Source of the DNA: Gammaproteobacteria bacterium
Lineage (GTDB): Bacteria; Pseudomonadota; Gammaproteobacteria; UBA6429; Thiohalophilaceae
NCBI GenBank assembly: GCA_030594815.1
Contig: JAUVEN010000017.1
Location: forward strand, 1 to 35,429
DNA length: 35,429 nucleotides
Direction: 5' to 3'
Below the pieces are notes generated by a model. That model was not told the origin of the DNA. It ran no database searches and was given only the letters and a program-made list of their open reading frames with translations. Position numbers and translations under genes: made by a program. Positions 7,466 through 10,624 of this stretch are shown piece after piece; the stretch's first letter is position 1, and every line of letters starts with the position of its first letter.

Positions 7466-7580
7466 CATTTATTCTTAACAATAAATTTTCTTCATGGTTT
7501 CACATAATAAAATAAAAATGTAGACTTTAATTTCAAGTCGGTAATCCACATTATCAAGCAATTGATTTTTTGTGAAAGAG

Positions 7581-7662
7581 ATAAAGGCAAACTTAGTTGA
7601 AAAGCTAAGCACGCAAAGTCACCGGTCTAAAGGGTAAACCCTATGACAGCGGAACTGCCGGC
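7581..7662 (+). promoter_or_regulatory. Cyclic-di-GMP-I riboswitch aptamer (GEMM-I)
   Basis: The order of conserved blocks matches the GEMM-I class. AAAGGCAAAC comes first, then a stem CTTAGTT/AGCTAAG closed by a GAAA tetraloop (7592-7609), then the conserved CACGCAAAG. After that come the CACCGGTCTAA and TATGAC strands, which form the tetraloop receptor around a small GGG-TAAA-CCC stem, then CAGCGG, and finally AACTGCCGG, whose TGCC re-pairs with the opening GGCA. Known role: this RNA binds cyclic di-GMP and controls the gene downstream. It lies 173 bases before the rhodanese gene on the same strand, with no other gene between. I could not run a covariance search, but the match is close throughout. 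Confidence 0.93.
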
Positions 7663-7834: not shown

Positions 7835-8662
7835 ATGAAAAATATTTTAAGTATGGTGGTAGTTTTATTTTTTTGTATATTCAGTATTGCTCATGCGAGT
7901 GATGAAGATTTCCCTGGACGCAAAAAATATCCGGATGTAAAAACATATAGCCAGCAAAAACTACGGGCAAATTTTGATAAAGTTATTATTGTTGATGCTC
8001 GCTCCAGCCTGGAATTTGAAACATTGCGTTTAAAAAATGCGGTAAACATACCTGTTTCAAGTAAATTATTTGAGAAACAAGTTGCAGCACTTCGTGCAAA
8101 AACAAAGAAACCGATCGTTTTTTATTGTAACGGCCATAATTGTTTTAAATCATACATTGCAACAAGAAAAGCTAAATCTGCAAAAATTCGTAATGTATAC
8201 GCATATGATGAAGGCTTGTTTTCCTGGGCTCATAAATATCCAAAGCAATCTGTTTTATTAGGTAGCTCACCAATACAAACAAAAAATATTATTTCTAAAG
8301 CAGCATTTAACAGTCGTTTACTCACACCTGATGACTTTAGTAAGCTTGCATATAAATATGGTTCGAAAAAAATCATATTGGATGTTCGTGATAAATATCA
8401 GCGTGGTGCGGCTGGATTTTTTCCAGGAAAAGAGCGCTGGGTTAGTTTAAACGATAGTGAAAAGCTTAATGCTATAATTAAAAAGGCAGTGAAAGAAAAT
8501 CGCACCTTGTTTATATACGATGAAGTTGGAAAACAAGTCCGTTGGTTACAGTATGCGTTAGAGCAGCATTCAGTAAAGAATTATTATTTTATGAAAAAAG
8601 GTGCTAAAGGTTATTACAAGCAAATGATGCAGGAGTTTGGAATCACTAAAACTGCATTATAA
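7835..8662 (+). CDS. Secreted tandem rhodanese-domain protein
   Basis: The 275-residue protein has a signal peptide (about residues 1-21, ending AHA), so it is likely periplasmic. The first rhodanese domain (about 35-140) has VDARSSLEFE, NAVNIPV and a catalytic-loop cysteine, C98, in FYCNGHNC. The second domain (about 160-270) keeps ILDVRD and the fold, but reads FIYDEVGKQ where the cysteine loop should be, so it is probably inactive. Rhodaneses move sulfane sulfur to acceptors; the acceptor here is unknown. The gene is preceded by a cyclic-di-GMP-I riboswitch and followed by a terminator, so it forms its own regulated unit. AGG lies eight bases before the ATG. A link with SoxXA sulfur chemistry is inference. 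Confidence 0.85.
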   Translation: MKNILSMVVVLFFCIFSIAHASDEDFPGRKKYPDVKTYSQQKLRANFDKVIIVDARSSLEFETLRLKNAVNIPVSSKLFEKQVAALRAKTKKPIVFYCNGHNCFKSYIATRKAKSAKIRNVYAYDEGLFSWAHKYPKQSVLLGSSPIQTKNIISKAAFNSRLLTPDDFSKLAYKYGSKKIILDVRDKYQRGAAGFFPGKERWVSLNDSEKLNAIIKKAVKENRTLFIYDEVGKQVRWLQYALEQHSVKNYYFMKKGAKGYYKQMMQEFGITKTAL

Positions 8663-8692: not shown

Positions 8693-8737
8693 AAAACAGG
8701 TGCGAGAGAATAATAAATCTTTTGCACCTGTTTTGTT
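8693..8737 (+). terminator. Candidate rho-independent terminator of the rhodanese gene
   Basis: AAAACAGGTGC pairs perfectly with GCACCTGTTTT across a 20-base loop and is followed by GTTT. The stem is good. The loop is longer than usual. Confidence 0.65.
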
Positions 8738-8909: not shown

Positions 8910-8998
8910 AAGGGGTCGTGTCTTACAGTTTAGACTTAAATCTAATTGTTTTTAAATATTCTAACACCATGAATGTGATTTGTAAGATGTGACCCCTA
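8910..8998. repeat. Short MITE-like or REP-like element with inverted ends
   Basis: AGGGGTCGTGTCTTACA (8911-8927) and TGTAAGATGTGACCCCT (8981-8997) are inverted ends around about 53 AT-rich bases. The three central mismatches would all be G-U pairs in RNA. The AGGGGTC end is like that of small elements moved by Y1 transposases in gammaproteobacteria. No transposase is present. The rest of 8738-8909 shows only a weak inverted pair (TAGGCGT near 8743, ACGCCTA near 8840). Confidence 0.55.
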
Positions 8999-9004
8999 TA
9001 GCTT

Positions 9005-9451
9005 CTAAGCATTATTACCTTTGATCACAAAATATAAAGCAATTAGAAGCAATACAATCTGAAATTCCATTCCTCCCATAGGGTAATTTTCTGAAGGTAT
9101 AAAATCCCAACGTCCCCAGTGAACCATAGTAATTGCCCCAAGCATAATAGGCACAATAAGTGCGCCACCTAGACGGGTCATCCAGTCATGCATACCGCCA
9201 CCGAGTAGGATTAATATTCCTCCAGCGACTTCAACTAATGCAACCAGAAAAGCTATGTTGACAGATAATTCCATCATGCCGGCAAAACCACCGAGATTCG
9301 TAAATTTCGAAACACCATGAAATAAAAATACACTAGCCAGTGATATTCTTAATAACCAATGTGCATGCTGCGAGTATGAATCAAGATATTTTGAAATACC
9401 GCCTAGATCCTGAAGACCATGGTGATGATGTGTTGCATGTGTATAAGACAT
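9005..9451 (-). CDS. DoxX-family membrane protein with histidine-rich N-terminus
   Basis: The 148-residue protein has four hydrophobic segments (about 33-50, 62-85, 90-110 and 128-145) and the DoxX family pattern: LLRISLASVFLFHGVSKF, then VEVAGGILILLGG, then a loop with HWGRWDF and ENYPMGGMEFQ. Family members sit in the inner membrane. Some belong to thiosulfate:quinone oxidoreductase, others to redox-stress modules, and most are uncharacterised. Residues 4-11 hold five histidines (THATHHHH), which could bind metal. The start has AAGGAG nine bases upstream, but that sequence lies inside a hairpin (9455-9499). The gene is monocistronic on the minus strand. Confidence 0.85.
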   Translation of the reverse strand: MSYTHATHHHHGLQDLGGISKYLDSYSQHAHWLLRISLASVFLFHGVSKFTNLGGFAGMMELSVNIAFLVALVEVAGGILILLGGGMHDWMTRLGGALIVPIMLGAITMVHWGRWDFIPSENYPMGGMEFQIVLLLIALYFVIKGNNA

Positions 9452-9454
9452 AAT

Positions 9455-9499
9455 AAATCTCCTTCTAAATAGAATTCTTACAAGTTAGAAAGGAGATTT
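9455..9499 (-). promoter_or_regulatory. Leader hairpin enclosing the doxX-family ribosome binding site
   Basis: In the minus-strand mRNA, AAATCTCCTTTCTAA (from 9499-9485) pairs with TTAGAAGGAGATTT (from 9468-9455), a 14-bp stem with one bulged base and a 16-base loop. The AAGGAG ribosome binding site is wholly inside the stem, a few bases before the ATG at 9451. Such a stem would block translation until opened. On the plus strand the same hairpin is followed by TTTTTT, so it could also end antisense transcription. Confidence 0.6.
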
Positions 9500-9557
9500 T
9501 TTAATTAGTTCCTGAATATTAATTGATTTGTCTAATAACATACATGTAGGAGTATTA

Positions 9558-9665
9558 TTAATATAACCAACTTCCAATGCGTCTTGAAATTATAAAACTT
9601 GCCCATGCAGTAACATTTAATAAAGCTTCATCATCTGGATGATGAAAACGAAAACATTTTTTCAT
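9558..9665 (-). CDS. Possible 35-residue protein overlapping the gamma-carbonic anhydrase stop
   Basis: An ATG shares bases with the carbonic anhydrase stop codon (ATGA) and opens a frame of 35 codons ending in TAA. The product starts MKKCFRFHHPDDEALLNV and ends GSWLY. It is basic, has two tryptophans and one cysteine, and is not repetitive. The ATGA junction is typical of translational coupling, and the frame covers most of an otherwise empty gap. I do not recognise the family. Without homologues it may be chance. Confidence 0.45.
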   Translation of the reverse strand: MKKCFRFHHPDDEALLNVTAWASFIISRRIGSWLY

Positions 9666-10189
9666 TGTTGATGGCGGTTCTTGAGTTTTACGTAATTATC
9701 AGCTGAATATTTAATAGATTTAATTTCTTCTTCAGATAATTTTCTTACCTTGCGAACTGGGCTTCCCATCCAAAGATAACCTGCTTCAAGATGTTTATTT
9801 GGCGTAACCAGAGAACCTGCACCTATCAAGGTATTTGATTCTATAACCACGCCATCCATAATTGTGGCGCCCATTCCTATTAGGCATGAATCTTTAATAT
9901 GACAGCCATGCAAAATAACACGATGTCCAACGGTAATATTGTTACCCATTTGTAAATCAAAACCACCGGGGTTATAAGGGCCATCGTGGGTAACGTGGAG
10001 TACGGAATTATCCTGAATATTCGTATTATTACCAATCTCAATGCGATTAACGTCACCGCGAATGACGGTAAGTGGCCAGACTGAACTGTTCTCACCGATT
10101 TTAACATCACCTAACACCAGGGCAGTGTTATCAACAAACGTTGTTGCATGGATATCCGGTGTTTTGTTTTCGAAGTTGCGTATCGTCAT
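9662..10189 (-). CDS. Gamma-class carbonic anhydrase family protein (YrdA/PaaY type)
   Basis: The 175-residue protein is a left-handed beta-helix of hexapeptide repeats ([LIV]-G-x-x-x-x), running from about residue 20 to 145, with a C-terminal helix (LSEEEIKSIKYSADNYVKLK). The likely zinc histidines are H65 or H68 (VLHVTHDG), H89 and H94 (VGHRVILHGC), placed as in gamma-carbonic anhydrases. Members act as trimers. Many close homologues have weak or no CO2 hydration activity, so catalysis is not certain. There is no signal peptide. It is followed by a possible small coupled ORF on the same strand. Confidence 0.92.
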   Translation of the reverse strand: MTIRNFENKTPDIHATTFVDNTALVLGDVKIGENSSVWPLTVIRGDVNRIEIGNNTNIQDNSVLHVTHDGPYNPGGFDLQMGNNITVGHRVILHGCHIKDSCLIGMGATIMDGVVIESNTLIGAGSLVTPNKHLEAGYLWMGSPVRKVRKLSEEEIKSIKYSADNYVKLKNRHQQ

Positions 10190-10585: not shown

Positions 10586-10624
10586 AAAAAAGCGAAGTGA
10601 GTTTAAACTCACTTCGCTTTTTAG
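10586..10624. terminator. Bidirectional rho-independent terminator between the lipoprotein and gor
   Basis: AAAAAGCGAAGTGAGT pairs perfectly with ACTCACTTCGCTTTTT around a TTAA loop. There is a T run on both strands, and the site sits between two convergent genes. Confidence 0.95.

Follow-up and report, generated by a model that had tools for sequence, protein, structure and literature searches.

In the mobile elements IS10 and IS50, a folded ribosome site protects against transcription entering from outside. According to excerpts from two reviews, the late promoters of phage T4 gene e and I-TevI lie within the 5' strand of a hairpin, the same arrangement as that considered here. For promoters of RpoE, the -35 target is given as GGAACTT in an excerpted review, while excerpts from a Salmonella paper and a Vibrio paper show GGAACTTTT with GTCAAA and GGAACTT with TCAAA, respectively. 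Excerpted publications also place DoxX-family genes under the control of ECF sigma factors, namely RpoE2 in H. influenzae, sigma-E in N. meningitidis and sigma-F in C. crescentus, which by analogy fits a stress role for the gene described below.

That gene lies in a window of 35,429 nucleotides (the whole stretch of DNA analysed, belonging to contig 81 of its assembly) and encodes a DoxX-family membrane protein of 148 amino acids (9005-9451, minus strand; Pfam DoxX PF07681, E 6e-12), with its ATG at 9451-9449. Its Shine-Dalgarno sequence, AAGGAG (9459-9464, minus strand), is enclosed entirely by a 14-pair hairpin, exactly as an earlier note on this DNA had claimed: on the minus strand, the left arm AAATCTCCTTTCTAA (9499-9485) pairs with the right arm TTAGAAGGAGATTT (9468-9455) through 14 pairs and one bulged U, as seen both in the sequence and by folding. 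Among the 140 genes that possess a Shine-Dalgarno sequence across 320 kb of this genome, the gene ranks first for inaccessibility of this sequence and fourth for the energy of the duplex that it forms with upstream bases. Shuffling of the whole region gives a z-score of -1.85, with an equally good fold in 12 of 200 shuffles, and dinucleotide shuffling of the 75-nt leader gives p = 0.05. The hairpin is moderately beyond chance, unusual but not extreme.

Two near copies of the gene illustrate which parts of this leader are retained. One is found on contig 88 of the same assembly (79% protein identity to the window gene) and the other in a sister species, represented by one genome of the same genus (81%); both DoxX genes have 77-78% of their bases in common with the window. 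These two loci share 93% nucleotide identity and the same upstream neighbour, priA, which was named by a family search on contig 88 and by an identical frame tail in the sister species. The assembly is listed with 2.88% contamination, and contig 88 represents a genuine second locus or else a sequence that has strayed in from a relative. Upstream of the start codon, contigs 81 and 88 resemble each other for about 75 nt; the similarity breaks off about 12 nt ahead of the -35 box described below. Just upstream of that box, an AT-rich block, CAATTAATATTCA (9513-9525, minus strand), is invariant or nearly so in the copy alignment; contigs 81 and 88 agree at every base of CAATTAATATTCAGGAACT, CTTTCTAA and AAGGAGAT, with the sister species departing from CAATTAATATTCAGGAACT at a single base. 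The 16-base length between GGAACT(A/T) and TCTAA is constant in all three copies, and conservation is poor between TCTAA and the ribosome site, a stretch that includes a 2-nt indel. Judged from the alignment, this is the pattern of conservation left by a promoter, not by a structured leader. A DoxX homologue of 64% identity in a further genome of the genus (G003) is without the conserved block, and a leader match in G006 was rejected as merely 28 nt over the ribosome site of another gene.

The conserved bases correspond to a predicted sigma-E promoter, GGAACTA-N16-TCTAA, a 28-base layout at 9512-9485 of the minus strand, in which a -35 box (GGAACTA, 9506-9512; GGAACTT in the other two copies, which read GGAACTT-N16-TCTAA) is followed by a 16-base spacer (9490-9505) and a -10 box (TCTAA, 9485-9489). 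The leader contains both a GGAACTT-like -35 element and, about 16 bases on, a TCNNA-like -10 element, as in RpoE/ECF02 promoters. The same layout is found in the E. coli rpoE promoter (GGAACTTTACAAAAACGAGACACTCTAA) and at E. coli rpoH (TGAACTT-N16-TCTGA), the latter being the promoter named P3. Within the genus, rpoH is preceded by TGAACT(T/A)-N16-TC(T/A)(A/T)A in all eight genomes (exactly TGAACTT and TCTAA in five of them), and rpoE by the related GAACTC-N16-TCTA in 7/7 loci examined, an eighth locus outside this count reading the same. The region upstream of rpoE in the genus (L113-L119, L121) is strongly conserved in its own right, with boxes GAACTC and TCTA(T/C) that depart from those of E. 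coli. A cognate sigma factor is also encoded: RpoE-family matches (TIGR02939) occur in all eight genomes of the genus, seven of them, including that of the window genome, above the cut-off, and the window genome's RpoE is 63% identical to that of E. coli.

Among 274 genes (those of the genome stretches compared, together with the window), only the DoxX leader of the window has a site with zero mismatches, and two others have one mismatch. When a matrix was built from the genus rpoE and rpoH sites only, with DoxX excluded, the leader ranked fourth of 274, with 92 of 20,000 random 130-mers scoring as high; on addition of the E. coli rpoE site, with DoxX again excluded, it ranked first, and 5 of 20,000 random 130-mers scored as high. 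A sigma-70 promoter scan listed no site in the DoxX leader. FadE, considered as a second sigma-E target, has one mismatch and was treated as a chance match; it is not known to be a sigma-E gene. Set against these findings are several negative results. Strict motif matches are not enriched in the genome (5 sites versus 5 for the control) or in 40 genomes of the family (12 versus 25), and no good sigma-E site was seen in the bamA upstream regions of seven genomes. Among 76 distant DoxX upstream regions, two (one of them that of the sister species) carry the motif with 0-1 mismatch, versus 1.9 expected, and the promoter is therefore limited to the small group to which the window belongs; most of the distant relatives are without promoter and hairpin alike. 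Overall, the sequence comparisons make it fairly likely that the conserved leader contains a sigma-E promoter.

The position of this promoter alters how the hairpin is to be understood. The 3' half of the spacer is the anti-Shine-Dalgarno stretch, and together with the -10 box it forms the left arm. When both arms are present in a transcript, the predicted probability that the Shine-Dalgarno sequence is unpaired is 0.002 for the window and 0.001 and 0.010 for the other two copies, and the lock proposed in the earlier note holds to this extent; there is no support, however, for a lock on the gene's own mRNA, because the left arm coincides with the predicted spacer and -10 box. From the promoter, which sequence and comparison support, we infer the start site, sigma-E dependence and a read-through lock. 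Transcription would start 4-8 nt past TCTAA, at 9480-9476 of the minus strand and thus within the hairpin loop, so that the promoter's own RNA would be without the left arm. A start downstream of 9485, which the earlier note had named as counting against the hairpin, is therefore what the sequence predicts, and a lock, if the mRNA lacks the left arm as is probable, could act only on read-through RNA from the upstream gene.

We accordingly propose that a sigma-E (RpoE, ECF02-type) promoter, whose spacer 3' half and -10 box double as the left arm, would give a transcript beginning in the loop with a free ribosome site, such that the DoxX protein would be made under envelope stress, while read-through RNA from the upstream gene would hold both arms and be locked against translation, in the manner of gene e and I-TevI of phage T4. 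Such RNA could originate from a gamma-carbonic-anhydrase-like gene (9662-10189, minus strand). Apart from the hairpin, no terminator was found in the gap between this gene and DoxX by a terminator scan and window-by-window folding, and read-through is thus plausible. In predictions at 37 C for the window, contig 88 and the sister species, respectively, read-through RNAs 260-273 nt long give the Shine-Dalgarno sequence an access of 0.002, 0.009 and 0.047, compared with about 0.30, 0.31 and 0.60 in the short RNAs; the value for the short RNA of the window barely varies with the exact start 4-8 nt past the -10 box. On this modelling the read-through lock is possible, and we consider the whole reading, comprising promoter, mRNA devoid of the left arm and locked read-through RNA, to be probable, though by no means secure.

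The strongest alternative is that only the sigma-E promoter is functional, the complementarity between spacer and Shine-Dalgarno sequence being a coincidence without function and no relevant RNA containing both arms. Every item of the promoter evidence applies equally to this explanation. Furthermore, locks do arise by chance: Shine-Dalgarno access below 0.05 is predicted for 5 of the 140 genes, the window gene included, and in the survey described below 12 of 235 controls pass a shuffle test at 0.05. The comparison of copies cuts both ways. Of the compensatory changes in relatives that the earlier note had suggested seeking, the pairing itself is found to be kept (29 of the 30 cells of an aligned 10-pair helix in three copies), but three pairs vary one-sidedly and none two-sidedly, and this lack of two-sided compensation favours coincidence. 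Against coincidence, all three copies preserve complementarity between the spacer's 3' half and the Shine-Dalgarno sequence, with C-to-U changes giving G-U pairs; shuffles of the 16 spacer bases alone reach an equally stable fold in just 5, 3 and 18 per 1000 cases (window, contig 88 and sister species); and the sigma-E spacers of genus rpoE and rpoH, compared by eye, bear no resemblance to an anti-Shine-Dalgarno sequence. Among simulated random descendants, a lock with a probability of 0.003 or less is retained by 67 of 500 for the window leader and 48 of 500 for that of contig 88. The evidence for the lock comes from three copies, two of which are nearly the same in sequence, and is only suggestive of selection. 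We place the explanation by promoter and coincidence just short of an even chance.

A wider view was provided by an unplanned, post-hoc survey of DoxX-family leaders, which arose from asking whether distant relatives keep the gene but not the pairing, the second finding that the earlier note had named as telling against its claim. Of 79 loci, three partial matches (L094-L096) were left out, and 11 of 76 were dropped as having no clear start and Shine-Dalgarno sequence. The ribosome site is locked (shuffle p <=0.05) in 13 of 67 leaders, the window and contig 88 included, versus 12 of 235 controls, which were genes of the same loci with open intergenic leaders. Merging of near copies leaves 10 of 63 locked (Fisher 0.007), and removal of the window's own group 9 of 63 (p 0.017). 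For the remaining 54 of 67 leaders the lock is not significant, so that most distant relatives do keep the gene without the pairing, while the near copies retain it. The distant locked leaders are unrelated in sequence, examples being repeats of 14 pairs in Halochromatium (L038) and of 11 pairs in a Neomarinimicrobiota bin (L071); inverted repeats of unrelated sequence that hide the Shine-Dalgarno sequence were observed before the DoxX genes of L038, L045, L070, L071, L056, L067, L029, L053 and L087. A replication set of nine loci (L004-L006, L016, L186-L190) held three that were new and readable, none locked, which is too few. The excess of locked ribosome sites in the DoxX family is a lead only.

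This excess, together with the strong lock predicted for the long RNA in all three copies, is what speaks for the view of the earlier note, in which the hairpin is part of the main mRNA and acts there as a thermometer or a target for a small RNA or protein. The left arm, however, falls on the spacer and -10 box of the predicted promoter, and folding at raised temperature leaves the helix closed even at 60 C (predicted Shine-Dalgarno access 0.011 in the window), well short of melting in the biological range; on these predictions the thermometer falls away as unlikely. An Rfam scan yielded no cis-regulatory RNA family at gathering score over the hairpin site, the loop is not conserved in the three-copy alignment, and a search of open-licence literature turned up no paper mentioning both DoxX and an RNA thermometer. 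The scan did return a sub-threshold rteR match on the opposite strand (E 0.03). A switch on the main DoxX mRNA is unlikely, and this alternative as a whole is improbable.

Two further explanations carry very little weight. The hairpin might be a terminator for antisense or plus-strand RNA, as the earlier note had suggested on the basis of a TTTTTT run: six T do follow the stem on the plus strand (9497-9502), but the run is missing from both other copies, so that stem and T run are not kept together in relatives, the site is unlisted by a terminator scan (whose rule admits loops of 3-8), and a separate inverted repeat, at 8693-8734, belongs to the plus-strand gene upstream, leaving an antisense stop unsupported and this explanation very improbable. 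Least credible of all is an upstream reading frame (...INIQELIK(K/Q)..F*, open in all three copies, with a TAA stop in the left arm) that ends in the leader and opens the hairpin by being translated, since no ATG, GTG or TTG is available in that frame on contig 88 or in the sister species, for which reason translational coupling was rejected, and the -35 and -10 boxes account for the same bases.

Other features of the window were recorded in passing. A 35-codon open frame (MKKCFRFHHPDDEALL...) in the region 9452-9661 of the minus strand overlaps the stop of the carbonic-anhydrase-like gene. An imperfect inverted repeat, GGGGTCGTGTCTTACA / TGTAAGATGTGACCCC, is located just past the DoxX stop (about 8915-8997), and a different, GACTCCGACC-type repeat precedes the other two DoxX copies (L002, L003); both kinds are presumably REP-type elements. 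A c-di-GMP-I riboswitch (7576-7662, plus strand; Rfam RF01051, 69.8 bits, E 7e-12) precedes a rhodanese-domain gene (7835-8662), and a perfect palindrome followed by T-rich DNA at 10587-10622 forms a strong terminator-like site where two genes converge. A homologue search found no viral or plasmid relatives of the DoxX protein.

In summary, the hairpin is real and is best read as the overlap of a sigma-E promoter with an anti-Shine-Dalgarno stretch. If the read-through lock is true, the promoter bases would double as a translational lock against read-through, affording a near-zero background for a stress gene from one short sequence, and a trick of phages and transposons would be extended to a chromosomal stress regulon. 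A still broader picture, in which a bacterial envelope-stress gene uses a T4-like trick (a sigma-E promoter built from the anti-Shine-Dalgarno arm, with only sigma-E transcripts translatable and upstream leakage silenced) and locked ribosome sites that keep the membrane protein off when unwanted have arisen independently in DoxX-family genes of several phyla, is speculative, and we hold it to be doubtful. More generally, hairpins seen over ribosome sites in raw DNA need a promoter check before they are labelled riboregulators. A search of open-licence literature for a sequestered ribosome site in long or read-through RNA gave no paper that contained all the terms sought.

Compared with the ECF-controlled DoxX genes of Haemophilus, Neisseria and Caulobacter, the window gene is likewise a DoxX-family gene, in this case with predicted control by an ECF sigma factor. 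As far as the excerpted descriptions go, those genes differ in sharing operons with partners whose function is unknown, and a ribosome-site hairpin such as that of the window is not mentioned for them. With the RpoE (sigma-E, ECF02) promoters of gammaproteobacteria the predicted promoter has in common GGAACT(A/T), the 16-base spacer, TCTAA, a cognate sigma factor and an envelope gene downstream; it is distinguished from known RpoE promoters by a spacer complementary to the Shine-Dalgarno sequence of its own gene. The silencing of read-through RNA by an upstream complementary arm, as proposed here, resembles that in IS10 and IS50, where the genes concerned are transposase genes of mobile elements. 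The likeness to phage T4 gene e, soc and I-TevI is that the ribosome site is sequestered in the long RNA and free in the short RNA from an embedded promoter, in the window by prediction, with the difference that the window gene is chromosomal and its promoter would be served by a bacterial stress sigma factor.
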